Positions 1 to 37,563 of a stretch of DNA of 37,563 nt are shown here, piece by piece. Origin of the DNA: an uncultured Acetobacteraceae bacterium (GTDB taxonomy: Bacteria > Pseudomonadota > Alphaproteobacteria > Acetobacterales > Acetobacteraceae). The number at the start of each line of letters is the position of its first letter. Position 1 is the stretch's first letter. The position numbers and the translations under genes were made by a program. The DNA lies in the NCBI GenBank assembly GCA_903847525.1, contig CAINEA010000067.1:1-37563 (forward strand), read 5' to 3'. The notes beneath the pieces are model-generated. The model made no database searches. It worked only from the letters and a program-made list of their open reading frames with translations, and had not been told where the DNA came from.

Positions 1-141
1 GTGAATTTCACAAGCTCATGCATGGTTTCATGCTTGGCGTTTTTGTTCATTAGGTTGGCGAACACGGCACGCTCGCAATCTGTCATCACGATGTAGCGAT
101 TGACCTGCCGCGTCTGACCGAAGCGATGAATCCGTTTGCCA
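1..141. repeat. Direct terminal repeat (copy 1 of 2), identical to 37423-37563; circular-assembly overlap
   Basis: The sequence gtgaatttcacaagctcatgcatgg...gaatccgtttgcca is identical at both ends of the window (141 bp). Confidence 0.97.
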
Positions 142-1283
142 GCCTGATAAAATTTCTCGAACGAGTGGGAGATCCCAACGTAAATGTCTTGGGCGCAGAA
201 CTGGAAGTTCAATCCCCATCCTGCAATCGAAGGCTTGGTCACCAGAACGCGAGCAGTGCCATCCGAGAACGCATCGAGCCTTTCCTCCTTCAGGTCATTG
301 GAATGATGGCCGGCGACCTCAACGGAGCCCGGAATGGCAGCGTGCATCGCCTCGCTCTCGGCATTAGTCTCGCACCAGACGACGAAGGATCCTGTCGAGT
401 TGTTGACCACTTCCGCAGCCGCGGCGACGCGGACCGCCATCGTCTTCCGGTTGTGCGCGTGCATCGCGGTGGACGACATGATTGGATTGACGAACAGCTC
501 CCCGGTATCAATCGACGACTGCATCAGTGAATCCACTTCGATGAACTCCGTGTTGACTGGTGGCAGGTCATATCCTGCGTCCTCACCGCCAACATCCGAA
601 GGTGTCCTAACGCATGCGGCCCACGATCCAACCCATTGCCAGAAGGTTTTGACGCTGTGCTTTTTGAGCCTCCACGTCCCGGTGTCGTAGGTGTCATTGA
701 TGAAGTAGGTCGCCAGCATTTGCGCCGGTGAACAGACGCCAAGGAACTCGGCATGCTGACCGAGTTCGGTGAAGTCGTTGGGCGCTGGCGTTGCCGAGCA
801 GCACAGCTTGAAACGAGTCGAGATAAACGCCTTGGTGATCGCTCGGCGCAACTTGCCTTCAAATGATTTCAGGATGGACGACTCATCCAAAACGACGCCC
901 GAGAAAACATCCGGTTGGAGTAGGTGCAGCCGGTCATAGTTGCAGATGTTGATGCCGGCGGTGACCTCGGATCCATCCTTGATTGTGTGCGCCTGGATTC
1001 CCCATCGGTCGGCCTCGGCGGCGGTCTGCTGCGCTACAGCGAGCGGGCATAGAATCAGCACTGGTTCACTTGTCGCGAGGTAGACTTGGTTTGCCCATTC
1101 CAACTGTTGAAACGTCTTCCCGAGGCCGCACTCTTCAAACAGCGCGAACCGGCCAACCTTCAACGCAAGTCGAACAAGATCGGCCTGCCATGGGAACAAC
1201 TTCGTGTTGAGTTGGCGCACTGGATCCATTCCGACCGACTGCGCAAACTTGGTTTTTGTTTCGATGAATTCGTCGTAGTTCAC
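1..1283 (-). CDS. SNF2-like SF2 helicase domain, N-terminal part of a helicase-DNA methyltransferase fusion continuing at 37422-36501 across the junction
   Basis: Manual translation from GTG at 1283: ALFEECGLGKTFQQLEWA (Walker A-like), GVVLDESS (motif II), CCSATPAPND (motif III), LVTKPSIAGWGLNFQ (motif V), YQAGKRIHRFGQTRQV (motif VI). Open through base 1. GTGA overlap with the upstream gene. Confidence 0.9.
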   Translation of the reverse strand, partial: MNYDEFIETKTKFAQSVGMDPVRQLNTKLFPWQADLVRLALKVGRFALFEECGLGKTFQQLEWANQVYLATSEPVLILCPLAVAQQTAAEADRWGIQAHTIKDGSEVTAGINICNYDRLHLLQPDVFSGVVLDESSILKSFEGKLRRAITKAFISTRFKLCCSATPAPNDFTELGQHAEFLGVCSPAQMLATYFINDTYDTGTWRLKKHSVKTFWQWVGSWAACVRTPSDVGGEDAGYDLPPVNTEFIEVDSLMQSSIDTGELFVNPIMSSTAMHAHNRKTMAVRVAAAAEVVNNSTGSFVVWCETNAESEAMHAAIPGSVEVAGHHSNDLKEERLDAFSDGTARVLVTKPSIAGWGLNFQFCAQDIYVGISHSFEKFYQAGKRIHRFGQTRQVNRYIVMTDCERAVFANLMNKNAKHETMHELVKF

Positions 1284-1444
1284 TTCAATCCTTTCAACCA
1301 CTCCGCCGCTTTGATGGCGTCGCTTTCGCAGATGTCCGAGAGCGTGACGCAGTTGTCCGACACGATGCCCTGATCTTGCAGGGCGTTCAGCGCCTTGGTT
1401 TCGGTCCAGCCGAGGCGCATGAGTTGGGTTAAGAGTGGGGTCAT
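1280..1444 (-). CDS. Small hypothetical protein (54 aa)
   Basis: MTPLLTQLMRLGWTETKALNALQDQGIVSDNCVTLSDICESDAIKAAEWLKGLK; ATGA and GTGA overlaps on either side. Confidence 0.7.
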   Translation of the reverse strand: MTPLLTQLMRLGWTETKALNALQDQGIVSDNCVTLSDICESDAIKAAEWLKGLK

Positions 1445-1776
1445 ACGTCAACCAATTGCTTAAACTCTGATACCACGGAATCAATGTCCGGGTGGCGTGA
1501 GTACACTGAGCCTTCTCTGGTACGGGCTGATAGGTGGAGCTTTACCATTCTTGGTCCAGACGACGTGATTTCAACCCGAACCGCCCATTTATGAGCAGCC
1601 AATACTAGTCGTGTGAGATGGTCGAAATCGAAGGTTGAAATACCTCCAAAGATGTTGGTCTCCCAATAGTCGTCCGAGTGCTTCTTGATCTTGCCGGCGT
1701 GGTGAATACCTCGAAAAGCGTATGCCAAGACACGATCTAATCTTTCAACGCTAGGCAGTTGGTGAGTTTCTTTCAT
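1441..1776 (-). CDS. Hypothetical protein (111 aa)
   Basis: ORF in the minus-strand chain, ATGA overlaps with neighbours. Confidence 0.7.
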   Translation of the reverse strand: MKETHQLPSVERLDRVLAYAFRGIHHAGKIKKHSDDYWETNIFGGISTFDFDHLTRLVLAAHKWAVRVEITSSGPRMVKLHLSARTREGSVYSRHPDIDSVVSEFKQLVDV

Positions 1777-10274: not shown

Positions 10275-10486
10275 CGGCTCCATTTCCCCTCGCCACACCG
10301 GGCGAGATTCCACCACGGATTGATCCTGTTCGAGGAGATTGGGCACCCGCATTTCGGCGAGAAGCATTTCGAATCCCGGAACTGTTCGCAGGCCGTGCAA
10401 ATGGCCTCTTTTTCGGCTGGCGTTGTGGAATGTGCCAGCGGTCGTGCCCCCACGTCCCGGATCACGGAGTCAGCGCGGAATCTCAT
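10271..10486 (-). CDS. Cys-rich small protein (71 aa), probable metal binding
   Basis: ICTACEQFRDSKCFSPKCGCP...CGEGKW. Confidence 0.65.
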   Translation of the reverse strand: MRFRADSVIRDVGARPLAHSTTPAEKEAICTACEQFRDSKCFSPKCGCPISSNRINPWWNLARCGEGKWSR

Positions 10487-13400
10487 TGGTCAACCGTTGG
10501 GATGCTCAGGATAAGCGCGTCAGGCAGGACCGGGGTAATCGCAGCCGCATTTGCGGCCCCACCCGAGCAGGTTGTCGCCGAGATAGCACCACCATGGAAA
10601 TTGAGAATCTGCCGGGCCAGTGGCTGCGGTTGCTCCGCACCCGACAACGCGAATTTGCAGCCGGTGCCGGTGACCTGTACCACGTCGAACAGCATGTACC
10701 CAGACGACGACGGATAGGAATTCGGTATGGCGTTGCATGGCGAGCCCGTGGTGGGGTCGTAACTGGCCGTTGTGGTCTCGACTACGGTATTGGTCGCGAG
10801 GATTGCCGCGGACCGGGTAGAAAGCATGTCGCGCCATTCCAGCGGGATAGCCTCAACCGCATCCGGGTCCGTTGTCTCGTAGCGCCACTCCTGGATGTCG
10901 AGGGAGTTGAGCACGCAATCCCCAGAACCGCCTGTTGATGGGTAATCGACGCCGACGCCCACCGTCGAGGTTGCGGACACAGCATCCGCCCAGGCCCCAA
11001 ACGAGATCGGGTAACTCGGGTAAATGGGAGACACCTGCGTGAATCCGATTGCGCCGACGCCGAGCGAAATGGTCGCGCTCTGATCCGTGTTTACGAAAAC
11101 GACGGTCTGCCAGTTGTACGACCCGCCCTCGCGCATCTCAAATTTGAAAGGGAGCATCACCCGAACCTTGTCGAGTTTGTTCACCGCCGCGACGTACTGG
11201 TTGAACGCCTCCGCCGCGGCTTTGATCGTGGGGAGCGGTCCGTAGCCCTCGGGCTTGTCGGTCCGGACATCTGCGGCCGCCAGCTTGCTCGTCGTCGCGC
11301 TCGCAATCGTTGAGAACCAGCGACCTCCGAACGCGTCGAAACAGAGGTTCGGGAACGTGTAATCGAACACCGCATTGATGCCGGCCGTGCAACCGTATTG
11401 CAGCGACGTGGCACCGTCCACATACCCCTCGCACATGACCCGCAGGTAGAGTTCCATCTGCGTGAATTGCTCGTGGGTGAGCGGCGTGTCCAGAGGCCCT
11501 GGCAGGTCGTTTCCGTCCTCGTAGGGTTTCGGGATGAGCTGGGAGAGCCGAAACGACGGGTAACACGCGCCCCAAGGCGAGTCGGGATCTCCGGAGATGG
11601 TCGAGGCGATCGAGGCGTTTCCGGCTTGGTACCCGTCTCCGAGGCAGTTTGTCCCGAGGTTTTGGTTCACCAGATACTCCCGGATCCCGTTCTCCACGCT
11701 GCGGAACGGCTCGGCGCGGAGGTTTGTCACGTTCCAGCCGGCCGGGCCTGCGGCAATCGTAGCGTCAGCCCCGTCGGTGAATCCGTTGGTCGAGTGAAGC
11801 CGCTTTTTAAGCGTCACCTTAACCCGTTCCTCGCCGTAGAAGTTTGCGGACACGACGGATTCGATTTCAAGATCCGGTTCAAACACCCGGCAGGAGCGGT
11901 AGAAGTTTTTCCGCCGGTCCTCGCACGTCGGATCCCCGCCGCAATCGAGGTGGTTGAGTTGGGTCGAGGTTTTCGCGTACCTATACCCCGCAGGATTCTC
12001 CGGAGCGATCCAGTCGGTTCCGAGCCCTGACGATTGCTGCCCGCCTCCGGAAGCGTTGATGTTCATGTGGGTGGTCAAATCGGCGGCCACCGTTGGGGTG
12101 TTTGGTGTGTAGAAATTGCACCGGTCAACGGTGCTGGTGGCGAAATAATCGGAGTAGGCCGACGCCTTCCAAATCGAAGAGTCGTTGTCGCTGTACGGCA
12201 TCAGAGCGACGCCGAAAAGCCACTCGTTGCTCCAGCCTTTCGGCACCGCGGTGGAAATGATCCCGTCGGCCTCGTAAACGGTTGCCGTCCCGGATTGCTC
12301 GTAATCCGTCGAGGTAGCCGTGAACGTCTGCCCGTTGCCGTAGATCATCCGCGCGTGCACTACGCTGCCCGTGGTCGCGCTGACGAGGTAGGACCGGCCA
12401 ACGACGAGGTACCCGGTTGCGATCGCAGCACGCGCCGGCCCGATGCCGTCGAATGCGTCCGCCGGGGTGTCGTTGCCCAGCCCGTAAGCCAGTCGGCGGA
12501 ACCAGAGGACAGATTTTCCACCGGCAACGGAGTAGTCCACCAAATGAAACCGCGGCAGGATCCGACAATGGCGCGAAAGCCTGCGTGCGGCGTCGAACAC
12601 GGCGTTTGTGTTCACCGGACCCAGAGAGCCAGGCAACGCGAGTTCCCCCCGGCGGTTGGCGACCATGCAGTTGCCGAAATAGTCGTCCCCGAGTTCCGCG
12701 GCCTGATCCTCGGCCAACCCGGAGCCGTCGGTGCCGTTGCTGTCGGCCATCCGAGCCCCGGCGAGGCGCAGGACGAGGTATAGGTCCATCGCACTCGGCT
12801 GGTAGGGGTAGATTTCCGCCACCTCGGCGACGAGTCCGGCGGCGGACGACACCTCAATGAACCGTGCGTCCGAATCCAACCGGAACGACAAAACGGAGCC
12901 CGTGGGCAACGTTGGGAAGATCCGGATCACTCCCGAGGCCGCCTGAGTCGTCGCGTCCGGGGTCAGGGTCACCGATCCGACCACCGCGGTCCCATTGAGC
13001 AGCGAAACCGTGACCGGTCCGGAGAGTTTCTGTCCGAGGATACCGACTGCGGACGCTACGACGCCCGCCTGGACGGTGTGGCTCGATCCCTCGGCCGCGA
13101 ACGTCATCCGGGTCCCGGCGCTGGCCGTGAGGCTACCGTTAATCGTTGCCTGCGGGTAGATCGGTGAGACAAACGAATGTCCGAGCGAGTCCTTTTCCTG
13201 ATTCCCACGGGCCGGGGCGAGCAGGTATTGGGAGGTCAGGAACTTTTGAACGCTGAACGCGTGGCTCGTCCATTTCGATTTGCCGGCGAGTTCGTCCGCC
13301 CGCTGATCATCCGTCCCGCGGAAGTCCCCGGCCCAAAAGTTAAGCGCCCGCTGGATGGCGTCCCCTGACTGTTTCGTCAGCGTGTTCCCGCCCGTGTATG

Positions 13401-14214
13401 GTCCCTCGATGTAGTCCGATTTCGACAGCACCTCAATCGACTGGTCGTGGTGCTGGACGATGTAATCGAACGGGGTGTAGAAGACGCCCGCGATGTCCGC
13501 AGGGATGTCCGCGCAGAAACCGGTGTAGGTTTTCACCGACAGGCCGTCCCGCAACGGATTGAACGTCAGGGTGTACTCGTACCGCGTGATGCCGTCGCCG
13601 AGGTCCGCGCACGTCGTCCCGGTGAGCGGTGGGGTCGGTGCAAATCCACCGTAGGAGTTGCCGTGCGGGCTCGTTAGCGACTGTCGGAGGTAATAGTGCA
13701 TCCGAGCCGCGGTGAATGCCGGCGACCCGAGAGCGCCCGTCGTGGGATCGAATGCGCCCCGCTGATATTTGCCGAGTGTCCATTTTTCCCACGCTGTTTG
13801 CGGCGTGTAAATCAGACCCAGCGTCAGCGGGACTCCGCCCGCACCGGGATCCGTGATTCGCTCGTCCTCAGAATCAATCCCTGCCGCGTCGACTCCGAAC
13901 ACGAACGACGGGAACAGCGACGCTAGATTCGCGCCCTCGTCGTCACCCGGTCCAGAGTCCGGATACTGCGCGTCGGTCGGCGACAGGTGCTGGTAAATGT
14001 GATGGAACTCGGCCTGCGGCGGGAACAGGAACCCGCTGGCGTCCGGGTTGCGGAGTTGCCGGAACGCGGAGAGCCAGTAGTAGGCCAACCGCCACGGCCC
14101 ATCCCCAAGGCCAGACACCAGCCGGTCGTTGATCGCGTTCGCGAGAGCGATCAGGTCCGAGGATTTGATCCGCTCGCCCGGGGTGACCAGGCGAGCGTTC
14201 CGGAATGTAATCAT
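10483..14214 (-). CDS. Large virion/tail-tip-associated protein (1243 aa), domain unassigned
   Basis: Longest ORF; distal to tape measure in the tail gene order. Confidence 0.75.
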   Translation of the reverse strand: MITFRNARLVTPGERIKSSDLIALANAINDRLVSGLGDGPWRLAYYWLSAFRQLRNPDASGFLFPPQAEFHHIYQHLSPTDAQYPDSGPGDDEGANLASLFPSFVFGVDAAGIDSEDERITDPGAGGVPLTLGLIYTPQTAWEKWTLGKYQRGAFDPTTGALGSPAFTAARMHYYLRQSLTSPHGNSYGGFAPTPPLTGTTCADLGDGITRYEYTLTFNPLRDGLSVKTYTGFCADIPADIAGVFYTPFDYIVQHHDQSIEVLSKSDYIEGPYTGGNTLTKQSGDAIQRALNFWAGDFRGTDDQRADELAGKSKWTSHAFSVQKFLTSQYLLAPARGNQEKDSLGHSFVSPIYPQATINGSLTASAGTRMTFAAEGSSHTVQAGVVASAVGILGQKLSGPVTVSLLNGTAVVGSVTLTPDATTQAASGVIRIFPTLPTGSVLSFRLDSDARFIEVSSAAGLVAEVAEIYPYQPSAMDLYLVLRLAGARMADSNGTDGSGLAEDQAAELGDDYFGNCMVANRRGELALPGSLGPVNTNAVFDAARRLSRHCRILPRFHLVDYSVAGGKSVLWFRRLAYGLGNDTPADAFDGIGPARAAIATGYLVVGRSYLVSATTGSVVHARMIYGNGQTFTATSTDYEQSGTATVYEADGIISTAVPKGWSNEWLFGVALMPYSDNDSSIWKASAYSDYFATSTVDRCNFYTPNTPTVAADLTTHMNINASGGGQQSSGLGTDWIAPENPAGYRYAKTSTQLNHLDCGGDPTCEDRRKNFYRSCRVFEPDLEIESVVSANFYGEERVKVTLKKRLHSTNGFTDGADATIAAGPAGWNVTNLRAEPFRSVENGIREYLVNQNLGTNCLGDGYQAGNASIASTISGDPDSPWGACYPSFRLSQLIPKPYEDGNDLPGPLDTPLTHEQFTQMELYLRVMCEGYVDGATSLQYGCTAGINAVFDYTFPNLCFDAFGGRWFSTIASATTSKLAAADVRTDKPEGYGPLPTIKAAAEAFNQYVAAVNKLDKVRVMLPFKFEMREGGSYNWQTVVFVNTDQSATISLGVGAIGFTQVSPIYPSYPISFGAWADAVSATSTVGVGVDYPSTGGSGDCVLNSLDIQEWRYETTDPDAVEAIPLEWRDMLSTRSAAILATNTVVETTTASYDPTTGSPCNAIPNSYPSSSGYMLFDVVQVTGTGCKFALSGAEQPQPLARQILNFHGGAISATTCSGGAANAAAITPVLPDALILSIPTVDQ

Positions 14215-17381: not shown

Positions 17382-17927
17382 TCAGGTGGTGATCGCTGCG
17401 GTCAGGCCAGTGATGCTGGTGGTGGACATGAATCGTTTCATCGGAAGCGTCATCGTCGCATGTCCTGAATTGCTGAGTTTCCAGGATCCGCCTCCAGAAT
17501 AGATCCAACGGTTAAGAGTGACACCGCTACCACCGCTGTTGAATGCGCCATACGTACCATCGCACAGCCCGCCAGCGCTGCCGTCGACTGTTCCACCGGC
17601 CGGTATGTACGGTAACCCTGTGATCGCAACCGAAGATCCGAGCGCTGGAAGCGGTGCCGACAACGCAGCGAGCGCCTGAGTTGTTGTGCCCTCTGGAACG
17701 AGGTCGAATGTGCATTCGAGATACTCACCGGACATGATCAGGCCGGTATATTCACCGGTAGTTCCTTTGATCATATCCTCCTGAGCATGGTGCGTCATGT
17801 TGGCGCTTGAAATGTTCGGAGACGTATATCCCGAAATCGCAGACCCCGTTCCGTTTGGTGGATAAAGAACGAAGGTCGCCGGCACACCAAAGACGTGTGC
17901 TTTATTGAGCTGGGTAGGAGTTGACAT
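17382..17927 (-). CDS. Major tail protein candidate (181 aa)
   Basis: Position upstream of chaperone/TMP; Gly/Thr/Ser-rich structural composition. Confidence 0.55.
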   Translation of the reverse strand: MSTPTQLNKAHVFGVPATFVLYPPNGTGSAISGYTSPNISSANMTHHAQEDMIKGTTGEYTGLIMSGEYLECTFDLVPEGTTTQALAALSAPLPALGSSVAITGLPYIPAGGTVDGSAGGLCDGTYGAFNSGGSGVTLNRWIYSGGGSWKLSNSGHATMTLPMKRFMSTTSITGLTAAITT

Positions 17928-18419: not shown

Positions 18420-19070
18420 TTATTTCGCGTTGTGACGGTCTGCGTCCTCCTGCATTTTGCGGGCGAGATAGACCTGCATGTCTTTCGTCGCGAAATCAAA
18501 ACCGGCTTGGAGAGCGGTGACGACGCGCGGGTCGATCTGCTGCCCGGACGGCTTGTTCTCCGTGAGCGTGTAGGTCCATTCCGCAACAGGATCCCAGCCG
18601 GATTTCGCTGGCGTGGCCCCGCCTTTTTGCTTCACGCGCGGTCCCGTTTCGGTCGAGCGAAGACCGAAGGAGGCTGCGAGTTTACGCATCGGGATCAGCC
18701 AACCGGCTGCCAGAGATCCGACGGCACGAAGACGACCTTTTCCTTTCGCGAGCGCTTCGGCCTGGGTGAGCGGCGGCTGGCCACGGCTCGCGCGGTTCGC
18801 TTGAACGAGATTGATCAGGTTGCGGTCTGGCCCGTAGGCGTACCGCCGGACGGTCTTGCCTTTCCTGTTCACACGTTCCGAAACCAGCGAAGCTCCGATT
18901 GCAGCCATCACGGCCCCGCGGTCTGCCCTGGGTGTCGCTTGAAACGCGGCCAGCACGATGTCAAAAGCCTTCCGGTTTATGACCTCCGCAATCGTCCGTT
19001 TCGTCCGGCCCATGTACTCGATGAGCGTCCGCTGGAACTCCGACTGGTCGATGTGGAGCGTGGGGGTCAT
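18420..19070 (-). CDS. HK97-gp10-like neck/minor tail component candidate (216 aa)
   Basis: Position and basic composition. Confidence 0.5.
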   Translation of the reverse strand: MTPTLHIDQSEFQRTLIEYMGRTKRTIAEVINRKAFDIVLAAFQATPRADRGAVMAAIGASLVSERVNRKGKTVRRYAYGPDRNLINLVQANRASRGQPPLTQAEALAKGKGRLRAVGSLAAGWLIPMRKLAASFGLRSTETGPRVKQKGGATPAKSGWDPVAEWTYTLTENKPSGQQIDPRVVTALQAGFDFATKDMQVYLARKMQEDADRHNAK

Positions 19071-19558
19071 CGGTTCACGTCCCCGAGTTCCAGAACGATG
19101 TAAGCGCCCTGCATGTTCATTTTCGCAGAGTCGATTCGGTATTGTTTCCCGCGAAATGTGAGGCGCTTCCCGGCCACCGGTTGCCGCAGTTGGTTTTGGT
19201 CGTCGGTGTATTCGAGATTCCCGCCGGACTGGTTTTGTAGGTTGCCGCCGTCCTCGGTCCCGATGACCTGATCTCCAGCCGTGGCCGAGCCGGCAGCGGA
19301 GTCCATGGTGACGTCGCCGGAATCAGTGGTGATGAGCGTGGTGTCGGAGAGCTTCCAGATCGCCCAGCGAACGAGAAGACGCAGGCCCGGGTTGCCCTCA
19401 AATCCGCCCGCCTTGAGCGCGTAGGAGTCCAGCCCATTCGACGGGATGCATGGGATCCAAACGCCGCGCCAGAGAAACTGTTGAGCCCGGGACGTGGAGG
19501 CGTCGCAGCGGGCTTCTACCGTTTTCAGTGCTCGTTCGATGGCGGGGGCGAGGCTCAT
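19067..19558 (-). CDS. Head-tail connector candidate (163 aa)
   Basis: Position; RLTFRGKQYRIDSAKMNMQGAYIVLELGD C-terminus. Confidence 0.5.
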   Translation of the reverse strand: MSLAPAIERALKTVEARCDASTSRAQQFLWRGVWIPCIPSNGLDSYALKAGGFEGNPGLRLLVRWAIWKLSDTTLITTDSGDVTMDSAAGSATAGDQVIGTEDGGNLQNQSGGNLEYTDDQNQLRQPVAGKRLTFRGKQYRIDSAKMNMQGAYIVLELGDVNR

Positions 19559-19773
19559 TTACGCTCCAGCTCCAGTTCGAGGGAATTGATTGTCTTCAAC
19601 GCGTCCCTGCACCACTCCGGCGCTGCCTGCCGGGCTGCCTGCGCGTCCGGTCGAGCCATCAACCGCGCCGAGTTGTCCAGTCGGACGTGAGACTGGCACC
19701 CCGACAGGAGCGTCAACCCAAGCGTCAACAGCAGCGTCCTTGTTTGTGCGGAGTTTTTGAGCGTCAGCTTCAT
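19555..19773 (-). CDS. Small lipoprotein, o-spanin (Rz1-like) candidate (72 aa)
   Basis: LLLTLGLTLLSGCQS lipobox; almost entirely nested in another frame of 19559-19879. Confidence 0.6.
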   Translation of the reverse strand: MKLTLKNSAQTRTLLLTLGLTLLSGCQSHVRLDNSARLMARPDAQAARQAAPEWCRDALKTINSLELELERK

Positions 19774-19879
19774 TTACTTTTGCGGCGTGCGAGTTGAGGG
19801 CGTCGGCGAGTTTTTCAACGAGACCGATTGACGCCGGCAGCATTCTCAGAAATGCGAGGATGGCGGCGATGATGCTCAC
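19559..19879 (-). CDS. N-terminally anchored protein, i-spanin-like candidate (106 aa)
   Basis: GTG start: MSIIAAILAFLRMLPASIGLVEKLADALNSHAAKVNEADAQKL...; GTGA overlap with the upstream gene. Confidence 0.5.
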   Translation of the reverse strand: MSIIAAILAFLRMLPASIGLVEKLADALNSHAAKVNEADAQKLRTNKDAAVDAWVDAPVGVPVSRPTGQLGAVDGSTGRAGSPAGSAGVVQGRVEDNQFPRTGAGA

Positions 19880-20268
19880 GGGGTTTTTGTGAGAAGGTGC
19901 GCCTTGATCGAGAACAAGAAGTCCAAGAGCCACGCGATGCCCTTGTAAATCGGACCGGCCTCGGCGGCGGCGAGCTTCTTGGCGGCTGCGGAATCAGGAC
20001 CCATGCCAGCCTCGATCGCGCTGAACATCGGCTTTGCGACAACGCGCACGGTGGCCATGATTGTGAGCAACGTGAGCAACCACGGATGAGTTCCGGCGAA
20101 CCCCTGGATGAACGGAGCGACCACTGCGCCTGTGGTGTCTGCACCAGCGTATGGAGTCAGGTCTGGGACGGCGTTGGTCTGCGCGTGCGCGACGGTGCAA
20201 CCGAACATCAGCAAAATGCCGAAGGTCAGTGCGATGAGGTGTCCGATGATACTGGTGTTTTTCTTCAT
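19876..20268 (-). CDS. Membrane protein with export-type N-terminus (130 aa)
   Basis: MKKNTSIIGHLIALTFGILLMFGCTVAHAQTN...plus internal hydrophobic segment. Confidence 0.65.
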   Translation of the reverse strand: MKKNTSIIGHLIALTFGILLMFGCTVAHAQTNAVPDLTPYAGADTTGAVVAPFIQGFAGTHPWLLTLLTIMATVRVVAKPMFSAIEAGMGPDSAAAKKLAAAEAGPIYKGIAWLLDFLFSIKAHLLTKTP

Positions 20269-20271
20269 AAA

Positions 20272-20478
20272 TTAGGGGTTGTCTTTGAAATCCTTCCGCA
20301 TCCTTCGGAAATACCAAATCAAGCCGCAGACGGCCGCGCAGAAACCGACGGCATGCGTCACCACGGTCAGGAATTCGTCCGCAATGTGGACCCATTGCAT
20401 GCTGACGCCTCCAACGATTGGCATCGCCGCCTTCGCGGTATCTTGAGCGAATTCCTTCATCTGTTTTTCGGAGTTCAA
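20272..20478 (-). CDS. Holin-like small membrane protein (68 aa)
   Basis: Hydrophobic segment FLTVVTHAVGFCAAVCGLIWYF followed by basic RRMRKDFK tail; next to spanin-like genes. Confidence 0.5.
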   Translation of the reverse strand: MNSEKQMKEFAQDTAKAAMPIVGGVSMQWVHIADEFLTVVTHAVGFCAAVCGLIWYFRRMRKDFKDNP

Positions 20479-22520
20479 TATGACACCGCGGTCAACGGGT
20501 TAGTCGCGGTGATGGTTGCATTAGATACCGCTGTAAGATCTAGCACGGCCCCGGTGGTCGGATTCACGAGTTCCATAACGATGCCGCCGTTTGGTGCGCT
20601 GGCGTCATAGTAAATGCGCCGAATGACGGCCGCTGTGGTGCCTCCAAGCGTGATACGCTGGCCGAACATGTGAGAGGTGTTGAGGTTCACCGAAGAGGCG
20701 TCACCACGAACTATTAGCCCGAGCGTCGGCGTCGAGTAAACCTTGAATGTGTCGCTTCCTGGGCATGATGTTCCTCCTGCGGATATGAAGAATTTAGCCG
20801 CTCCAGTAGTTGAAATTAGTAGGTCTCCGGTCGCGTACTCGATCCCAAAAGGGACATTTGTTCCGGTGAAATAGTGGATCCGGTTGACCGGGTTTGATTG
20901 GTTGAATGCCGTCGAGAAACCAAAGTTATTCCCGGTTGCGATCAGCTTCGCGTTACCCTGAATCGTCGAAGACGAATCGAAATTTGTGCTGATACCGAAT
21001 GAGCTTGTTCCGAACTCGTCTCGGGCGTTGTTGTTTTCGCAGATCAGAGCGTATCTGTAGACCGAAGCGTATGTGTCGGAAAAATATGGGATCGGTTCTA
21101 GAAACAGAGTCTTGGCTGCAAAGCCTCCTGCGAGCGCGATCTTGGCTAGCTTTGCCGAAAACGAATTATTCCGAATCGTCTGAGTTCCCCTTCCTTTTAT
21201 ATAGCACATGCCGTTGCGGGTGACGTTTCCTTCGACGGCAAGAATCGGAGGGTCGGTTAATTCGTAAGGAGTGTTGAATCCATCGGAACTCGTCAAAGGC
21301 TGAGTCTCAATATAGAGCGAAGCGTCGGTGAGCGTGTTATTAGAAACCGTGGTATTTCTCGGGACATTGGATTCACCGCTTACAGGGTAGCCTCCGAAGA
21401 CGCCGATTCCCATTCCTGGAGCAGCATCGAGGTAGATTCTCTCGACGACGTTACATTGAATGGTCGCGTTCCAAGTTCCGATTGCCAAAATTCCAGCAGA
21501 CAGAGCGCCAGAGATGTTCGGCGTATTGGTCACGCTCAAATCGAAGACGCTGTTCCCGGAAATCATGCATCGGTTAACGTACTCGACATGGATTCCCTGT
21601 GCTGCATGAGTGACGGAGTTGTTCACAATCCTGACATCACTGATCGTTGATGACATGTGGGCCGGAAGTGGAGAATACCCAGAAACGTCAATCCCAAGAC
21701 CAGCTCCAGTGGTCAGAGTGCTCGAAACACCGTCGATTATGTTTGCCTCAATCGTGACGTTTGAATCCGTCCCTGGTGTGCAGTCCCAAGATATCGCGTC
21801 GGAGTTCATCGTGCTGGTGATGATATTCCCGTTGATCATCGCCCGATTTGCGATAGATGAAGAAGCGACTACGCCTTGTCGGATGACGAAATAGGCGCAC
21901 TGATATGCCGAGCAATCATAGACGTGAAATCTCTGGATGTCCGACGCTGACCCATGATCCATTACCGTGATGCAATACGGGTGATCTGTCGAAGTTCCGA
22001 AAAAGTGGACGCGTGAAATGTCTATTTTCCCGGATGTCACCTGTAGTTTTCGTGGGTCCGGCCCATTCGACATCGTGAAATTTCCGCCGCCGTCGATTGT
22101 GACTGATCCGGAGCATACGATGTTTCCGATGCCAGAAATGGTTCCCTCGACTCTGACGTGCTCGTATGCCGGTACAGTTACAGTCCCGTCGATTCGGAAT
22201 GTGTAGCCTGGCGGGAACAGGACATCTGTCCCGGATGCCATCGCGGCATTGATTGCGTCGGTGTCATCGGTCGAACCGTCACCAGCGGCCCCGGCGGCCC
22301 GGACATTGACGATACCGAGCGCACCTTTGATGAGTACGCCTGCCGAAATCTTCTTGGTCGTTCCCTTCGACGACATGGTTTTGTCTCCGTACTCGACGAA
22401 CGGAACCACGTCATATTGCGGGTTTACGCTCGTCGCAGAGTTGAGGTCGGAGACTTTGGCGTCAGCACCGAAGGCAACGCGGGCGATGACGAGCAGCAAG
22501 ATTGAAAGGAGACGTTTCAC
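20475..22520 (-). CDS. Pectate-lyase-like beta-helix tailspike (681 aa) with N-terminal signal-like sequence
   Basis: VNVRAAGAAGDGSTDDTDAINAAMASGTDVLFPPGYTFRIDGT; parallel beta-helix-like asparagine-rich repeats; MKRLLSILLLVIARVAFGADA N-terminus. Confidence 0.8.
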   Translation of the reverse strand: MKRLLSILLLVIARVAFGADAKVSDLNSATSVNPQYDVVPFVEYGDKTMSSKGTTKKISAGVLIKGALGIVNVRAAGAAGDGSTDDTDAINAAMASGTDVLFPPGYTFRIDGTVTVPAYEHVRVEGTISGIGNIVCSGSVTIDGGGNFTMSNGPDPRKLQVTSGKIDISRVHFFGTSTDHPYCITVMDHGSASDIQRFHVYDCSAYQCAYFVIRQGVVASSSIANRAMINGNIITSTMNSDAISWDCTPGTDSNVTIEANIIDGVSSTLTTGAGLGIDVSGYSPLPAHMSSTISDVRIVNNSVTHAAQGIHVEYVNRCMISGNSVFDLSVTNTPNISGALSAGILAIGTWNATIQCNVVERIYLDAAPGMGIGVFGGYPVSGESNVPRNTTVSNNTLTDASLYIETQPLTSSDGFNTPYELTDPPILAVEGNVTRNGMCYIKGRGTQTIRNNSFSAKLAKIALAGGFAAKTLFLEPIPYFSDTYASVYRYALICENNNARDEFGTSSFGISTNFDSSSTIQGNAKLIATGNNFGFSTAFNQSNPVNRIHYFTGTNVPFGIEYATGDLLISTTGAAKFFISAGGTSCPGSDTFKVYSTPTLGLIVRGDASSVNLNTSHMFGQRITLGGTTAAVIRRIYYDASAPNGGIVMELVNPTTGAVLDLTAVSNATITATNPLTAVSY

Positions 22521-22939
22521 GGCTTCGGCACGATCGTTCCGAGGTTGTCGATGTTGGCGTCTGCGACAGTCGGATCGAAAGGATCAGGCTGATTTCCTGA
22601 CCCGTCAGGGATGAACCCGTCAAGCTGGAGCAGCCTACGGATCGCCGCTAGCGTCCGCGGGTGGAGCGTATAGAGCTGCTGGAACCGTGCGTTGCCGGCG
22701 GCGTAGAGCTGTGCGGCGGCGGCGGCCCGGCCCTGCGCCTCGAGGTCGTCGGATAACTTGGCGAGGTACGCCGCGGAGTTTGTCGCCCCGTTCGAACGAG
22801 CGATGAAGTCGAGCCCGGGAGTCGCCGGTGCGTTGGTATCTCCGATCAGAGAGAATCCGAGGGAGAATACTAATCCACCGACGAGCGCAATCGCGCACAT
22901 AGTGCCGATCGAGAGAACGAATTGAGCTAGTTTCTTCAT
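22517..22939 (-). CDS. Signal-anchored hypothetical protein (140 aa)
   Basis: MKKLAQFVLSIGTMCAIALVGGLVFSLGFSLIGD. Confidence 0.6.
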   Translation of the reverse strand: MKKLAQFVLSIGTMCAIALVGGLVFSLGFSLIGDTNAPATPGLDFIARSNGATNSAAYLAKLSDDLEAQGRAAAAAQLYAAGNARFQQLYTLHPRTLAAIRRLLQLDGFIPDGSGNQPDPFDPTVADANIDNLGTIVPKP

Positions 22940-22943
22940 GGGA

Positions 22944-24986
22944 TCAGTTGGTGATAAAGAAGTTGACACGGGTTTCAGCGGTGGGAGCGGTTCCGAGATA
23001 GATTGTGAATGAACCCGAGGCGGCAACTGCCTTCACATTCGCTGCCGTCGCATCATTGGTTGCGATGGTGCAGATAATAACCGAGCTGGTTGTAACCAGT
23101 GAATCAGTCACGACGAGCGACGTGGCGGCGGCGGCGAAATTGACCGACCCACTGGTTTTGTTGATCGTCTGCGCACCGGTAATTCCGCCTAACGTAATTG
23201 TCTTTCCAAGCTGAACGTCCCCAGCGACAACAAGTGTTCCAGCGGAATTGATTGATGTTCCGAAATATCCCGTCCTCGGTCTCGTCGCTCCAGATGCGCC
23301 GATGTCAACAAGATTGTCGGAACCAGGAGTGAAATTGCCCGATGTTGTTACGGTCCAATATTTTGCACTGTATCCATACAATCGGAGTCCATAACCCTGC
23401 ACGGTCGTAAGTGCTGCGGGTGGTCCGTCTGGATTTGATCCCATCACCACTGGCCTATACTGTCCAGTTCCACCCGATTCGGCACCAATATGCAATTCGT
23501 TGGTTACCCATTTAAACGTTCCGCGCTCAAAATTGGTCGCATCATAGGCCGTGTTCCACGCCTCGATGACGCTGCCAGCGCCAGTCGCCTTGATCGGGCC
23601 TGCCGAATAAATAGCATTCGGACGATTGCCGCTGATCGTTCCAATCGAAGCCGATGCTTCGTTCATGTAGAGGTTTCCGAACTGGTCGATATTCAGGAGC
23701 ACGGTTCCACTCCCGCTCTTTCCGAAGGTGAAATACTGATTCACCGCATCGAGCAACAAAGTCGGATGGCTCCCCGTGCTAGGGTCTCCGGATTGGATCC
23801 TGACGCTTCGGGTTCCGTTTCCGGTCCCTGCGTTTTGGGTTCCAATCGTCAGAGTGTTGGCGGTCGTCTTCCAATCGAAGACCCCAATCTCGTAGTTGTT
23901 TCCGTCGGTCCATGTGTTGGCCACTCGCAACGCCTGCGCGGTCGTGTTATTCCTCAGGTCCACAGTATTTGCCGCATCCCGGAAAAGATAGGTGTCGGAA
24001 TTCCAGTTGAGGGTTGCAGCACTGGCGAGATTTGCGGCCGTGTTGATCGTCGGAGACGTGATGCTCGCACCGGTGGGAATGGTGACCGTACCCGTGAATG
24101 TAGGGCTCGCAATCGGGGCATACGTCGATGCCGCGGTCCCGGTCGTCAGGTACCCTGGAACCGTCGGGGAACCAGTGAAGGTTGGAGAAGCCAACTTTGC
24201 GTAACCCTGACCAACTACGTAGGCGGTGCTGGCAACCTGCGTGGTCGATGTGTCAACTGCCGCCGTTGGCGTCGTAGGCGTCCCGAGGAGCGATGGGGTG
24301 GTGATGCTCGCACCGGTGGGAATGGTGACCGTACCCGTGAATGTAGGGCTCGCAATCGGGGCATACGTCGATGCCGCGGTCCCGGTCGTTAGGTACCCTG
24401 GAACCGTCGGTGTGCCGGTGAACGTTGGGCTCGCAAGTTTAGCATACGCCTGATTTACAACATAGGCCGTGCTGGCAGCCTGTGTTGTAGCCGTATCAAC
24501 CGCTGCTGTCGGAACCGTCGGTGTACCGGTCAAAGCTGGTGAGGAGAGTTTAGCATAACCCTGACCCACTACGTATGCTGTCGTAGCAAGCTGAGTGGTT
24601 GAAGTATCAACGGCGGCAGTGGGTGCAGACGGAACGCCGGTCAGAGCAGGGCTTGCCAACGGCGCGTATGTGCTGGCCGCTGTAGCTGCGGTGATACCAT
24701 CGGAAATGCTGTAACCCGCCAGCGTGGTCGGCGTGCCCGTGATTTTCGACCATACCAAAGAAGAGAGCCATGATGGGTTGGTGTAGCTGAAATCGGACCG
24801 GATAACGGTTCCATTGGTCGCGATCTGGCCGAAAATGTTGGTGAAGTTCGCGTTGATCTTCGCCATCGCCGACCGCAGCGAATCACCCGTCTGATCGTTC
24901 GGGCTCGACCCGATGTTGACCAGATTCTGCGCGTTGACCGTTGCGGCCAAAAACAGCGCGGATATGAGTCGGAAAATGGAGCGCAT
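22944..24986 (-). CDS. Tail fibre protein (680 aa) with N-terminal signal-like sequence
   Basis: MRSIFRLISALFLAATVNAQNLVNIGSSPNDQTGDSLRSAMAKINANFTNIF; repeated ASPTFTGTPTVP and TAAVDTSTTQVASTAYV collar repeats. Confidence 0.8.
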   Translation of the reverse strand: MRSIFRLISALFLAATVNAQNLVNIGSSPNDQTGDSLRSAMAKINANFTNIFGQIATNGTVIRSDFSYTNPSWLSSLVWSKITGTPTTLAGYSISDGITAATAASTYAPLASPALTGVPSAPTAAVDTSTTQLATTAYVVGQGYAKLSSPALTGTPTVPTAAVDTATTQAASTAYVVNQAYAKLASPTFTGTPTVPGYLTTGTAASTYAPIASPTFTGTVTIPTGASITTPSLLGTPTTPTAAVDTSTTQVASTAYVVGQGYAKLASPTFTGSPTVPGYLTTGTAASTYAPIASPTFTGTVTIPTGASITSPTINTAANLASAATLNWNSDTYLFRDAANTVDLRNNTTAQALRVANTWTDGNNYEIGVFDWKTTANTLTIGTQNAGTGNGTRSVRIQSGDPSTGSHPTLLLDAVNQYFTFGKSGSGTVLLNIDQFGNLYMNEASASIGTISGNRPNAIYSAGPIKATGAGSVIEAWNTAYDATNFERGTFKWVTNELHIGAESGGTGQYRPVVMGSNPDGPPAALTTVQGYGLRLYGYSAKYWTVTTSGNFTPGSDNLVDIGASGATRPRTGYFGTSINSAGTLVVAGDVQLGKTITLGGITGAQTINKTSGSVNFAAAATSLVVTDSLVTTSSVIICTIATNDATAANVKAVAASGSFTIYLGTAPTAETRVNFFITN
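24058..24167. repeat. 110-bp direct repeat copy 1 (spacing 243 bp)
   Basis: gtgatgctcgcaccggtgggaatgg...ccgtcgg, one mismatch to copy 2. Confidence 0.9.
24301..24410. repeat. 110-bp direct repeat copy 2
   Basis: Matches 24058-24167 with one C/T difference. Confidence 0.9.
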
Positions 24987-25093
24987 GGGTCTTCTATTTT
25001 GCGTCTTCAATGCGGGGCGGCCGGACCATAAAAACCGACCGCCCCGCTGAAATGCCACACCGCGCGGAAGACGACGCGACGGGGGCAAGTGAC

Positions 25094-25474
25094 TTACGTT
25101 GTCTTCTTGCTCGCAATGAGAGTCACGGAACAAGCGAACGACGGCGTGGTTCCAGCGATGGTACCGATGGCACGGATGAATTTCCGGACGTTGCGCAGGT
25201 CGATTTTGAGCGTGGCTGGATCTGTCAGCGCAGCGGTTACCTGCGTGAACGTGTAGCCGCTAACGTCGGCGTAGCTGGAGTCATCGGCCGAATCCTGGAT
25301 TTTCACGTCCAGAGTCGGAGTAGTGCCGCTGGTAATGCCATTGGCGAGATTGACCATTGCAAGGCCCTCATACGTCGAGACGTTGACGCCTGTACCGGTG
25401 GCGGTTGTGGTGCGTGCAGCAGGAGCCAAGAGGGTCTTGGAAGTCGTGCTGCCTGCGATGTCGAAATTGATCAT
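25094..25474 (-). CDS. Capsid-associated/decoration protein candidate (126 aa)
   Basis: MINFDIAGSTTSKTLLAPAARTTTATGTGVNVSTYEG; directly downstream of MCP. Confidence 0.6.
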   Translation of the reverse strand: MINFDIAGSTTSKTLLAPAARTTTATGTGVNVSTYEGLAMVNLANGITSGTTPTLDVKIQDSADDSSYADVSGYTFTQVTAALTDPATLKIDLRNVRKFIRAIGTIAGTTPSFACSVTLIASKKTT

Positions 25475-25504
25475 GGGGTGTTATTCCTTTCGGGTTTCGA
25501 TGGA

Positions 25505-27400
25505 TTACTGAGCGCCGGAATCGGTCGATTTGCAGAACGAAGCGGTGTGGCGGATTCCAACATCGCACCACTGAGTCAAAACCACCTTGATCTGGCCGTT
25601 TTCAGCGAGGGAGTACGGGTCAACCACGAGGTCTAGGCCCGCCCACGAAGCGAAAAACATGTCATTCCAGTTTCCGAAAATGACCTGATTGGCGACCGCA
25701 GCGGCCGCGCCAACCTGATTGGTGACGATGGCCGGGTAAGAGTTGATCACGCCGTCACCCGGGAACATACCCTGCTGCGCTTCGAAGATGAAATTCGAGT
25801 ACTGAGAGGAGGCGATCTTGGTCACTACCTTGGTCTTGCCGCGGGTGGCAGGGGAAATGACGTAGGCCGGATTACCCATGAGAGCGTTTCCGGTCGCCAC
25901 GTTGGTTTCAAAGTCGACGAACTTGCCGTAGGTCGCGGCGCCTCCGAACGTGACATCAGTGGCCGATGCCACCGTGACCACACCCTGAGGCTGGCCGGCG
26001 TTGCCGGTTCCGAGCATCGCAGCGCGGTCAATTTCGATCGCGGAAACGAGCTGGAGGTCTTCGCGGACTACACCCTCAACGTCGAGGGATGCCTGCATGA
26101 CGAGATCCTTCTCGAACGCAGTCGCCGCGACGAGGCGGTGAGGGGTCAGGCCGAGCTGACCAAAAGTCTGGTCAGTCTTGGTCGCAGCGCCTGATGCCGG
26201 TAGCCAGTAGGCGGTTGCGCCGCCGGTACCGCGAGGGATGGCGACATTGCCGACGAGCCCGCCAAGCCGACGAACGCCGAGGCGGTCGATGACGGGTCGG
26301 TTGCGGAGCAGTTCGATGTATTGCCCACCGAGAGTCTGAGTGCCGACGAGCGCCTGGCCACCGGCAAAACTGGTGACACTGAGCGCACGCATATCGCCAT
26401 CGGGAACGAACATCCGCTGGAGGATGACCTCTGGGATGAGGAACCCCTTTGGAGCCTGATGAGCGCCACGCCTCAATTCGGCGTGAACTTCGGCCTCTGC
26501 ACCGTCGAGCTTGACGCCAGAATCAGGAATTCCGGCGAGGATCAGCCGGCGAACAGAGTACCGCTTGATCGCGTTCTGAGCGTCGCGGGTGGAGAAGTCC
26601 GGCGCGGTGTCAATCGGGGTCGCCCTGTAGTGGTTTTCGATGACGTGCCGGTTGAAGTCTGCGGCGGATTTCCCTTCGCTGATGAAGCGTTGGGCATCAG
26701 CCATCGGGATCTTGCAACGCGCGGCAACGGCGAGGATTTCGCCGGACTCTTTGTTGCGGTCGGAGACAGTGGTAACGGACACAACAGGCGGAACAACGGC
26801 GGCGGCACCGCCGCCACCGGACTGCGCAACAACGCCCGCAGCGGCGTCAAGTAGGGTTCGATTCATAGGGGTAAGAAGTTCAACTTTGATCTCCGTTTCG
26901 GTTCCATTCGCAGCACGCCCGACGCCCACGGAGTCATCGGCCGGCACGCTGACAATGCTGATCTCGTACGGCTGCCAGGAGCTGATGAGGAAGGTGGAAT
27001 CATCACCCTCTTTCGCGATCTCCCGGGCGGCGTTGACATTGTAACCAACGCTCACTTTCGTGCGGATTCCATCCGCTACGTCGTCGAAAATCTGTTGAGC
27101 CTCCGGGGCCTTGGAAAAGCGAACGGTGGCCATTCCACGGCCGTTCTCGATCCATGCCTTCTCGACGACTCCGATTTGATTATTTGTGTCGTGGTTGAGC
27201 AGGAGCGCGGCACCGTTTTCGAGACGCGAAAGGTCGCAATCGCCGGGCTCGAAACTCAAAACTTCCTGACCGAACCAGCGTTTTACGGGTTCCGCGGAGG
27301 CGAACGAGAGATTTACAGTCCGCTTGTCGGTATCAATCGAAGCGCGATCAAACGACGCCGAACGCGTCATCGGCCGCATCTTGATGATATTGAATGCCAC
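25505..27400 (-). CDS. Prohead protease-major capsid protein fusion (631 aa)
   Basis: N-terminal protease-like LNHDTNNQIGVVEKAWIENGRGMATVRFS...ISSWQPYEISIVSVPADDSVGVGR; C-terminal HK97-type MCP GGQALVGTQTLGGQYIELLRNRPVIDRLGVRRL... Confidence 0.88.
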   Translation of the reverse strand: MAFNIIKMRPMTRSASFDRASIDTDKRTVNLSFASAEPVKRWFGQEVLSFEPGDCDLSRLENGAALLLNHDTNNQIGVVEKAWIENGRGMATVRFSKAPEAQQIFDDVADGIRTKVSVGYNVNAAREIAKEGDDSTFLISSWQPYEISIVSVPADDSVGVGRAANGTETEIKVELLTPMNRTLLDAAAGVVAQSGGGGAAAVVPPVVSVTTVSDRNKESGEILAVAARCKIPMADAQRFISEGKSAADFNRHVIENHYRATPIDTAPDFSTRDAQNAIKRYSVRRLILAGIPDSGVKLDGAEAEVHAELRRGAHQAPKGFLIPEVILQRMFVPDGDMRALSVTSFAGGQALVGTQTLGGQYIELLRNRPVIDRLGVRRLGGLVGNVAIPRGTGGATAYWLPASGAATKTDQTFGQLGLTPHRLVAATAFEKDLVMQASLDVEGVVREDLQLVSAIEIDRAAMLGTGNAGQPQGVVTVASATDVTFGGAATYGKFVDFETNVATGNALMGNPAYVISPATRGKTKVVTKIASSQYSNFIFEAQQGMFPGDGVINSYPAIVTNQVGAAAAVANQVIFGNWNDMFFASWAGLDLVVDPYSLAENGQIKVVLTQWCDVGIRHTASFCKSTDSGAQ

Positions 27401-36113: not shown

Positions 36114-36504
36114 AGGATTGAGGTTCAAAAAGATACCAGTGCCCGTCGTCGAGTCGGACGATGTTTTCTGCGTGTGAGGTTGGGATGTTGTTGAGATCGC
36201 GCGGACCGGGTTGATACAGAACGCCACGGGCTTCACCGAACGAGTGGGGCACCGTCCAGCCGGCACATAGACAGGCAAGGTCAGCCTCAGCGGCTGCGAG
36301 ACGCACGAACTGTTTGCAGATAAAACTGGGGTCAGTGTAGTCCGGTCTGATGTCAGCGAAGTAGGTGCCGAATTTAAGGATCCAATCTATCGACGGAAGG
36401 CCCACGTCGAGGCCGGCGTTGAGAAGCTCGATGTGTTCGACCGGAATACGGAGCGCAACGAGTTCGTGGAGCAGTTGGGTTGAGGGGATGGTTGGTGGGG
36501 TCAT
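36040..36504 (-). CDS. Hypothetical protein with Cys...His...Glu-type motif pattern (154 aa)
   Basis: FICKQFVRLAA...SHAENIVRLDDGHWYLFEPQS; ATGA overlap with the methyltransferase stop. Confidence 0.65.
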   Translation of the reverse strand: MTPPTIPSTQLLHELVALRIPVEHIELLNAGLDVGLPSIDWILKFGTYFADIRPDYTDPSFICKQFVRLAAAEADLACLCAGWTVPHSFGEARGVLYQPGPRDLNNIPTSHAENIVRLDDGHWYLFEPQSCEDPTSITRYDPDSSLFVVTGVRV

Positions 36505-37563
36505 GCAGCCTCCGTGAACAGGTCCTGCCTCAATCCATCGGCCTTGGTGAGGTTTCCAACCGCTTCCTTGAAGTAGCTTGCCTTCAACTCTGCGCCGATG
36601 AACTTGCGGCCCATCTTCACCGCGCAGTAACCCTCGGATCCGATACCCATGAATGGAGAGAAAACGGTGTCACCCTTGCCGCTCCAGAGGAACACCGCGC
36701 GTTCGATCACGTCGAGTTGCAGCGGGCAGATGTGGCGCTCATCGGAAGCCTCGCGCCCGTCTTCACCATTCAGCACGCGCCCCTGGTCAATCTCCATCCA
36801 CACCGGGCTGGCGATCTCCTGCCAGCGGTCGAGGTTGAACTCGTCCTTGGTGCGTTTGATCGGCACCGGATTCTCGCCGGGCTTCCGGAACACAAGCAGA
36901 TAATCAGGAACGCCGACGCGGGAATTGGCGGAGTCCAAGAGCAGCGTCTTGTAGAGCAGGCCATGGGCCTTTGTGCGCTGCATTTCGGTGACGGGTGATT
37001 TCCAGATGGTGATGCGCGAATGAAACATCCAACCGCTCGACCGGAACGCTTCCGTGATCTTCGTGGAGAAATCCTTGAGCTCAATGGATCCGTCCTTCCA
37101 CTTCGTCGAGAGCAGGTCGCAGCAATGAACCGCGCACTCCCGTCCCGGCATCGTGATGCGGGTCAATTCGTCGATCAGATAGCCAAACTGCACCATGAAA
37201 GATTCCATGCCGTCGCAGTTGCCCATGTCCTGCACGTCGGACGAGTAGGTGAACAGGTCAGCGAACGGAGGGGAGAACACGGAGAATCCAATGGAGTCCG
37301 ATGGCAGAGTCTTGGCAACGCGCACGCAGTCGCCATTGTGGGCCGTCCAGTTCTCCGACGTGGTAGTTTCGATGGTGTCGTTCATCACGATTGATTTGTC
37401 AGTTCCGACGAGATTGTTTCGGGTGAATTTCACAAGCTCATGCATGGTTTCATGCTTGGCGTTTTTGTTCATTAGGTTGGCGAACACGGCACGCTCGCAA
37501 TCTGTCATCACGATGTAGCGATTGACCTGCCGCGTCTGACCGAAGCGATGAATCCGTTTGCCA
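36501..37563 (-). CDS. N4-cytosine/N6-adenine DNA methyltransferase domain (beta-type motif order), C-terminal part of the fusion
   Basis: VFSPPFADLFTYSSD (SPPF catalytic motif), then VFSPFMGIGSEGYCAVKMGRKFIGAEL (FxGxG SAM motif); in frame with the helicase ORF across the circular junction (735 codons total). Confidence 0.9.
   Translation of the reverse strand, partial: GKRIHRFGQTRQVNRYIVMTDCERAVFANLMNKNAKHETMHELVKFTRNNLVGTDKSIVMNDTIETTTSENWTAHNGDCVRVAKTLPSDSIGFSVFSPPFADLFTYSSDVQDMGNCDGMESFMVQFGYLIDELTRITMPGRECAVHCCDLLSTKWKDGSIELKDFSTKITEAFRSSGWMFHSRITIWKSPVTEMQRTKAHGLLYKTLLLDSANSRVGVPDYLLVFRKPGENPVPIKRTKDEFNLDRWQEIASPVWMEIDQGRVLNGEDGREASDERHICPLQLDVIERAVFLWSGKGDTVFSPFMGIGSEGYCAVKMGRKFIGAELKASYFKEAVGNLTKADGLRQDLFTEAA
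37423..37563. repeat. Direct terminal repeat (copy 2 of 2)
   Basis: Exact copy of bases 1-141. Confidence 0.97.

Follow-up and report, generated by a model that had tools for sequence, protein, structure and literature searches.

Predicted Sec-type signals on the tail fibre and tailspike of a siphovirus-like phage are conserved in a sister phage and recur in unrelated phages

Introduction

The cytoplasm is the accepted site of assembly for tail fibres and tailspikes. The contig CAINEA010000067.1 (G000:C67), one whole contig of a fragmented Acetobacteraceae metagenome-assembled genome (MAG), raises the question of why phage genes for such proteins should begin with export signals. The window, as we call this stretch of 37,563 nucleotides, contains three consecutive genes, encoding a tail fibre, a small protein that we call X, and a predicted beta-helix tailspike, each with an N-terminus of the Sec/signal-peptidase-I type, directly upstream of likely holin and spanin lysis genes. 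A preliminary description of this DNA had quoted four such N-termini and had regarded signals on the fibre and tailspike as unexpected and perhaps undescribed. All four N-termini are present on the minus strand where that description placed them, and the signals proved to be real, conserved and recurrent.

Three consecutive genes carry export-type signals

Signals were called with a rule based on n-region charge, h-region and cleavage site, requiring a positive n-region, an h-region of about 8-15 hydrophobic residues and a small-X-small site near residue 15-30. As controls, OmpA, PhoA, LamB and MalE were called, and LacI and GroEL were rejected. The caller was positive for the fibre, X, the tailspike and a nearby 130-amino-acid (aa) protein, as well as for their homologues in a sister phage. 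When about 30 genes of the window were scanned at their own starts, six were called: these four, the adjoining Rz1-like lipoprotein, and, weakly (score 22.6), a presumed tail gene (17382-17927). The signals on the 130-aa protein, which begins MKKNTSIIGH, and on the lipoprotein are ordinary for a presumptive lysis cassette. The unusual signals are those on the fibre, X and the tailspike, and the earlier claim that several adjacent signals are unexpected holds for these three and not for the 130-aa protein.

The other in-frame starts of the fibre are at codon 13, inside the signal, and at codon 41, inside the docking domain described below. The same applies to the tailspike, whose in-frame starts after codon 1 fall within the signal or the first mature domain, so an intact fibre or tailspike could not normally be started without its signal. 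Internal start codons were ruled out as true starts, as none yields an intact domain without the signal. The position of the tailspike start is also fixed by its overlap with the stop of X, which is found in both this phage and its sister.

The hydrophobic N-termini could instead be uncleaved anchors, or helices for virion attachment or trimerisation, with the proteins remaining in or at the inner membrane or the particle. Protein X has a long anchor-like hydrophobic stretch, and phage tail proteins such as tape measures carry hydrophobic segments that trip the rule; false positives of the caller among the surveyed contigs were mostly tape-measure-like stretches at internal starts. However, the hydrophobic cores of the fibre and tailspike are short, with K/R before them and small-X-small sites after them. 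These sites coincide with the first residues of known fibre domains, the pattern is seen in several unrelated phages, and related domains in other proteins attach with no segment of this kind. We therefore consider the anchor explanation unlikely.

The signals are conserved in a sister phage

The sister phage IMGVR_UViG_3300032271_000426 (L107/L112, G100) has the same gene order, with protein identities of 66% for a 1243-aa protein, 64% for the portal, 61% for X, 50% for the fibre and 44% for the beta-helix protein. All four signals are kept in the sister: MNSFIRFFLLLAFAARLSA/AQQTIN in the fibre, MKKLLCCIAGASILGAIIFG/QTPGLD in X, MKAFFSTLWAAFSLAAFG/DAPITS in the tailspike and MKIRFYHLLAFAALSAVLFGCGVAHA/DTN in the homologue of the 130-aa protein (L107 3421-3819), where the slash marks the predicted cleavage site. 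The letters have changed, with the charge, hydrophobic core and cleavage site retained, and between the two phages the signals are 29-41% identical, the mature parts 43-53%. Neutral simulation, a rough null that gives no exact probability, left a signal intact in 14-31% of open frames, depending on the gene, and all four together in about 0.1%. By this comparison of sequences, four signals in the sister phage are more than chance would be expected to leave. The signal arrangement is conserved also in a further contig, L114. The check proposed earlier, whether homologues retain the signals, thus came out positive in the sister phage, and the arrangement recurs in unrelated phages as described below.

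This conservation bears on whether the signals are an artefact of wrong start codons or chance hydrophobic stretches. Such an artefact might be suspected in a metagenomic assembly with weak ribosome-binding sites. We regard it as very improbable, because a relative assembled independently has kept the signals, as has L114, no alternative start is available, the signals are clustered in one cassette, and an isolate, Sphingomonas sp. SRS2, shows the same arrangement in its genome. Predicted export of the fibre, X and the tailspike is well supported by sequence.

The predicted mature fibre begins at a docking domain

The fibre has the characteristics of a tail fibre, namely repeats, a fibre C-terminal domain and an N-terminal docking domain. 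Residues 21-55 match phrog_958 (baseplate wedge), PHROG tail-fibre families are also matched, and the repeats match the tail-fibre repeats of 9k09. Residues 20-56 form a T4 gp10-type domain, and gp10 residues 2-49 (PDB 5hx2, 2fl8) align from the first mature residues. This domain begins at residue 1-5 in T4-like, cyano- and Rhizobium phages, including Synechococcus phage S-SCSM2R (MSRLGINTGSSANDGTGDSLRSAMGKINSNF) and Rhizobium phage RHph_I1_9 (MAYQLINIGAAPNDKTGDPLRTAFKKIN), and T4-like viral contigs likewise have it at the protein start. Here it is not at the first residues, as it is in T4-like gp10, but follows a signal of about 19 residues. The preliminary description had named homologues that start after the hydrophobic segment as a finding that would speak against export; this applies to the distant homologues in T4 (gp10), cyanophages and Rhizobium phages, and not to the sister or several independent phages. 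The docking domain is 59% identical (20 of 34 residues) between the sister phages, compared with 50% for the whole fibre. Being better conserved than the fibre average, it seems to be still in use.

Searches with full-length proteins were unproductive, so domain alignments were used: the fibre had no match in INPHARED and matched IMG/VR sequences in the docking domain only, and the tailspike had no match in IMG/VR. The 90-aa fibre C-terminal domain (TGAQTINKxxGSVNFAAxATSLVVT...AETxVNFxxxN) occurs across many unrelated viral-contig fibres, and no Pfam entry was matched.

Signal-bearing fibres recur in other phages

A survey of the fibre C-terminal domain kept 80 of 101 loci, at 56-76% identity. 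Clear signals among the surveyed fibres were found in the sister phage, L118, L177, L178 and L180. L118 (G152), whose portal is 33% identical to that of the window, has two adjacent signal-bearing fibres after the head genes (MSRSFLRLILILILFLNGGVETRA/ANVQLKDL and MKRILITLMALCGVSHG/ALIE). L177 (G151), with a podovirus-type portal, has four signal-bearing fibres, all located between capsid and tail genes, and no signal-free fibre was found among the G151 genes scanned. One of the four has MKRLFLLLLSCNVFA ahead of a region matching tail-fibre PHROGs. One G151 fibre and one G153 fibre are without the positive charge required by the rule, and their signals were judged by eye. On the podovirus-type G151 contig (L213/L214), the four signal-bearing fibre-like genes span 18510-25814; a 767-aa structural protein of the same contig had no relative in INPHARED.

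The GTDB contigs found to contain the fibre C-terminal domain numbered three, from a Flammeovirgaceae MAG, another bacterial MAG and a Sphingomonas sp. SRS2 prophage, and all three fibres have a signal. The SRS2 fibre (MRKIFAAILAATVSVALLA/QTAQVVPQLGID), from an isolate genome, is encoded close downstream of the central fibre J gene. A tailspike-family protein of a second sphingomonad begins MRRLTMAAAALLLGLAAAAGA/QTGQVLPQLGLD, and its first 43 mature residues are 63% identical to those of the SRS2 protein. The sphingomonad prophage fibre (L201 5217-8216) and spike (L208, open reading frame start near 1480) have in common a signal and a two-cysteine N-terminal domain, QTxQVxPQLGxDxxGxCRxLxVYD..GCLD, which turned up in 2 of 401 genomes from the family. 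The signal-bearing fibres and spikes amounted to roughly 17.

No signal was found in 16 proteins from four phage records with partial matches to the surveyed fibres, and no signal-bearing fibre was seen in the available DNA of 80 distant portal relatives. Weak caller hits in L181, L194 and L195 were rejected as internal or low-scoring starts.

Tailspike, protein X and the 1243-aa protein

The tailspike, a putative right-handed parallel beta-helix, matches phrog_6117 (colanic acid degradation; E 1e-12) and, just under the Pfam cut-off, Pect-lyase (E 1e-5). The best Foldseek match of its structure model, which is of low confidence with a predicted local distance difference test (pLDDT) score of 44, was the phi92 colanidase gp150 (E 2e-4). 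Protein X was seen only in this phage and its sister, and its model was uninformative (pLDDT 47); it is possibly a chaperone of the fibre or spike. The 1243-aa protein belongs to no PHROG, Pfam or NCBIfam family and had no match among GTDB contigs. It is cysteine-rich and may represent an undescribed kind of central fibre or tip of the tail.

Table 1 Positions of the signal-bearing cassette and other features in the window
Feature	Position (start codon)	Strand	Remarks
Tail fibre, 680 aa	22944..24986 (ATG 24986)	-	Signal peptide, T4-gp10-type N-terminal docking domain, tail-fibre repeats, shared C-terminal domain
Fibre signal peptide, MRSIFRLISALFLAATVNA/QNLVN	24930..24986	-	Rule-based call
Fibre C-terminal domain	22947..23216	-	73% identical in sister phage; common to at least 80 other viral contigs
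Protein X, 140 aa	22517..22939 (ATG 22939)	-	N-terminal signal/anchor; between fibre and tailspike; begins MKKLAQFVLSIGTMCAIALVGGLVFSLGFSLIG
Predicted colanidase-like beta-helix tailspike, 681 aa	20475..22520 (GTG 22520)	-	Start overlaps stop of X
Tailspike signal peptide, MKRLLSILLLVIARVAFG/ADAKVS	22467..22520	-	Rule-based call
Holin-like small protein	20272..20478 (ATG probably 20460)	-	One transmembrane segment; holin-like by position and size; homologue L107 3206-3418
130-aa protein	19876..20268 (ATG 20268)	-	Signal MKKNTSIIGHLIALTFGILLMFGCTVAHA/QTN (VAHA/QTN) and one transmembrane segment
Candidate inner-membrane spanin	19559..19876	-	Overlaps Rz1-like gene; inferred from position and overlap
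Rz1-like outer-membrane spanin lipoprotein	19555..19773	-	Lipobox LLSGC; phrog_11621 Rz-like spanin, E 0.007
Protease-major capsid fusion	25505-27400	-	Head gene upstream of cassette; head block 25094..27400
phrog_5707 protein	25094-25474	-	Head gene upstream of cassette; head block 25094..27400
1243-aa protein	10483..14214	-	Downstream of tape measure; sole large signal-free candidate receptor binder; 66% identical in L107

Lysis genes and genome context

The cassette adjoins a set of lysis-type genes (Table 1), of which the holin-like gene had no PHROG match. The 130-aa protein is probably part of this lysis cassette. The phage is of the diderm type and has an Rz1-like lipoprotein, which is kept in the sister phage (L107 3858-4148). 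The lysis-type genes (19555-20478: holin-like, signal/transmembrane protein and overlapping spanins) lie midway in a structural operon, flanked by head genes and candidate head-completion genes. In L116, a distant relative, head-tail genes follow the capsid directly, with no such cassette or lysis insertion. No endolysin was recognised in the window. In the sister phage, the spanin genes are separated from the next head gene by a 140-aa gene (L107 4145-4567) that is absent from the window; its product contains Cys/His residues, has no Pfam match and is possibly an endolysin.

The first and last 141 bases of the contig are identical (1-141 and 37423-37563), and a helicase-methyltransferase gene of 2547 nucleotides is in frame across the junction (1484..1 / 37563..36501). 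The contig is therefore not a prophage fragment but a circular phage genome, complete at about 37,422 bp. The genome is of a siphovirus-like type, with nearly all recognised genes on the minus strand: a replication initiator, DnaB, terminase, head-tail joining protein, portal, protease-capsid fusion, phrog_5707 protein, the signal cassette, candidate head-completion and tail genes including a tape measure, the 1243-aa protein, recombination genes and methylases. Capture of host genes at a prophage edge was ruled out, given the complete circular genome and a cassette located between head and lysis genes. The same location sets the tailspike apart from host-encoded exported tailspike-like enzymes of the WceF type, which lie in a bacterial polysaccharide locus.

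The guanine-cytosine content is 0.58 in the phage contig and about 0.63 in the readable contigs of the MAG, with a tetranucleotide correlation of 0.78-0.86. The fibre C-terminal domain was not found in 147 genomes of the MAG's relatives, except for one marginal broken match. The phage contig may be mis-binned, judging from the composition of the MAG and from the absence, in the MAG's family, of fibre relatives and of close relatives of the phage. No 16S was found when assigning the host, a promoter and terminator scan of the window gave chance-level hits only, and the capsid had no match in IMG/VR.

How fibres predicted to be exported could be used

The reading that we tentatively prefer is that the exported fibre and tailspike mature in the periplasm and dock on particles at lysis. 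The fibre, X and the tailspike would be synthesised late and routed by host Sec across the inner membrane, where signal peptidase I would cut off 18-20 residues, as sequence conservation suggests. The mature fibre would then start exactly at an ordinary virion-docking domain. The exported proteins might trimerise in the periplasm, and opening of the envelope by the adjacent holin/spanin cassette would let them meet and dock on particles built in the cytoplasm. Receptor-binding fibres and depolymerase would thus be gained only at or after phage release, and surplus exported protein would be free depolymerase. Our preference for periplasmic maturation rests on the retention of the docking domains and on G151, in which no signal-free fibre was found. 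Late docking is feasible, since particles can take up P22 tailspikes and T4 fibres extracellularly. It is conceivable, if rather doubtful, that several unrelated tailed phages export fibres or tailspikes through Sec and arm their particles at or after lysis, the cytoplasmic particles being fibreless. To our knowledge, no such two-compartment route of virion assembly is known for tailed phages.

Several points weigh against maturation and docking. About 64 of the 69 complete fibres with the shared C-terminal domain are without a signal (an ordinary start is MADVKISALPAATTPLDGTELVPIVQGG), so export is no general need of such fibres. Shine-Dalgarno signals ahead of the starts are weak. The docking domain could be retained for trimerisation only, and receptor binding could in truth fall to the 1243-aa tail protein, in which case the exported proteins would be free.

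Nearly as likely is that the exported fibre and tailspike never enter the particle and act in free form outside the infected cell, one degrading polysaccharide and the other occupying receptors, aiding spread and blocking superinfection or re-adsorption to debris. The signals on all three proteins, the resemblance of the tailspike to a colanidase and the placement of the cassette with lysis genes rather than the tail module are consistent with this, as is the Pantoea enzyme WceF, an exported bacterial tailspike-fold protein with a twin-arginine translocation (Tat) signal that trims exopolysaccharide (PMC7949094). However, the fibre still has a conserved T4-gp10-type docking domain immediately behind the predicted cleavage site, and since all fibre-like proteins found in G151 bear signals, free action would leave that phage without a recognisable virion fibre.

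Comparison with known systems

Searches of the open-licence literature found no account of Sec signals as a feature of tail fibres; an earlier description outside it is possible. The absence of a signal has been taken as support for the phage origin of variable binding proteins (PMC6199706). Conserved signals of the cleavable type on ordinary fibre domains, arisen repeatedly, would point either to a second assembly compartment for tailed phages or to a class of depolymerases and receptor blockers that phages export. If true, either one would alter the recognition of receptor-binding proteins in genome sequences, because signal-bearing fibres are easily mis-filed as host proteins.

The N-terminal domain of the T4 gp10 baseplate wedge, and of the gp9-gp10 fibre connectors of T4-like phages and cyanophages, is the one found in fibre residues 20-56, but those proteins start at the domain and are not exported, whereas here the signal comes first and the genome is siphovirus-like. 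Phi92 colanidase gp150 and beta-helix capsular depolymerases resemble the tailspike in the colanic-acid PHROG and the best Foldseek match. Proteins of the gp150 type are virion tailspikes made in the cytoplasm without a signal, while the protein described here has one and is a putative enzyme judged from a low-confidence model. Filamentous phage pIII is a receptor-binding virion protein with a cleavable signal peptide, but it inserts into the inner membrane and is assembled during extrusion in an unrelated, non-tailed phage.

The nearest published cases are isolated predictions such as PblB, together with WceF and lambda Lom. Pantoea stewartii WceF is a trimeric tailspike-like beta-helix glycanase with an export signal, as is predicted here, but it is encoded by a bacterial capsule-locus gene, not a phage gene, has a Tat signal and has no fibre partner (PMC7949094). 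Lambda Lom is a signal-bearing phage protein encoded among tail-fibre genes, but it is an outer-membrane barrel and no fibre (PMC12309495). PblB of streptococcal prophages is a surface-associated prophage tail protein with a putative signal peptide, predicted in the pneumococcal prophage; it differs in being a single, Gram-positive case, and S. mitis PblB is drawn without a signal and released by phage lysis (PMC4508584).

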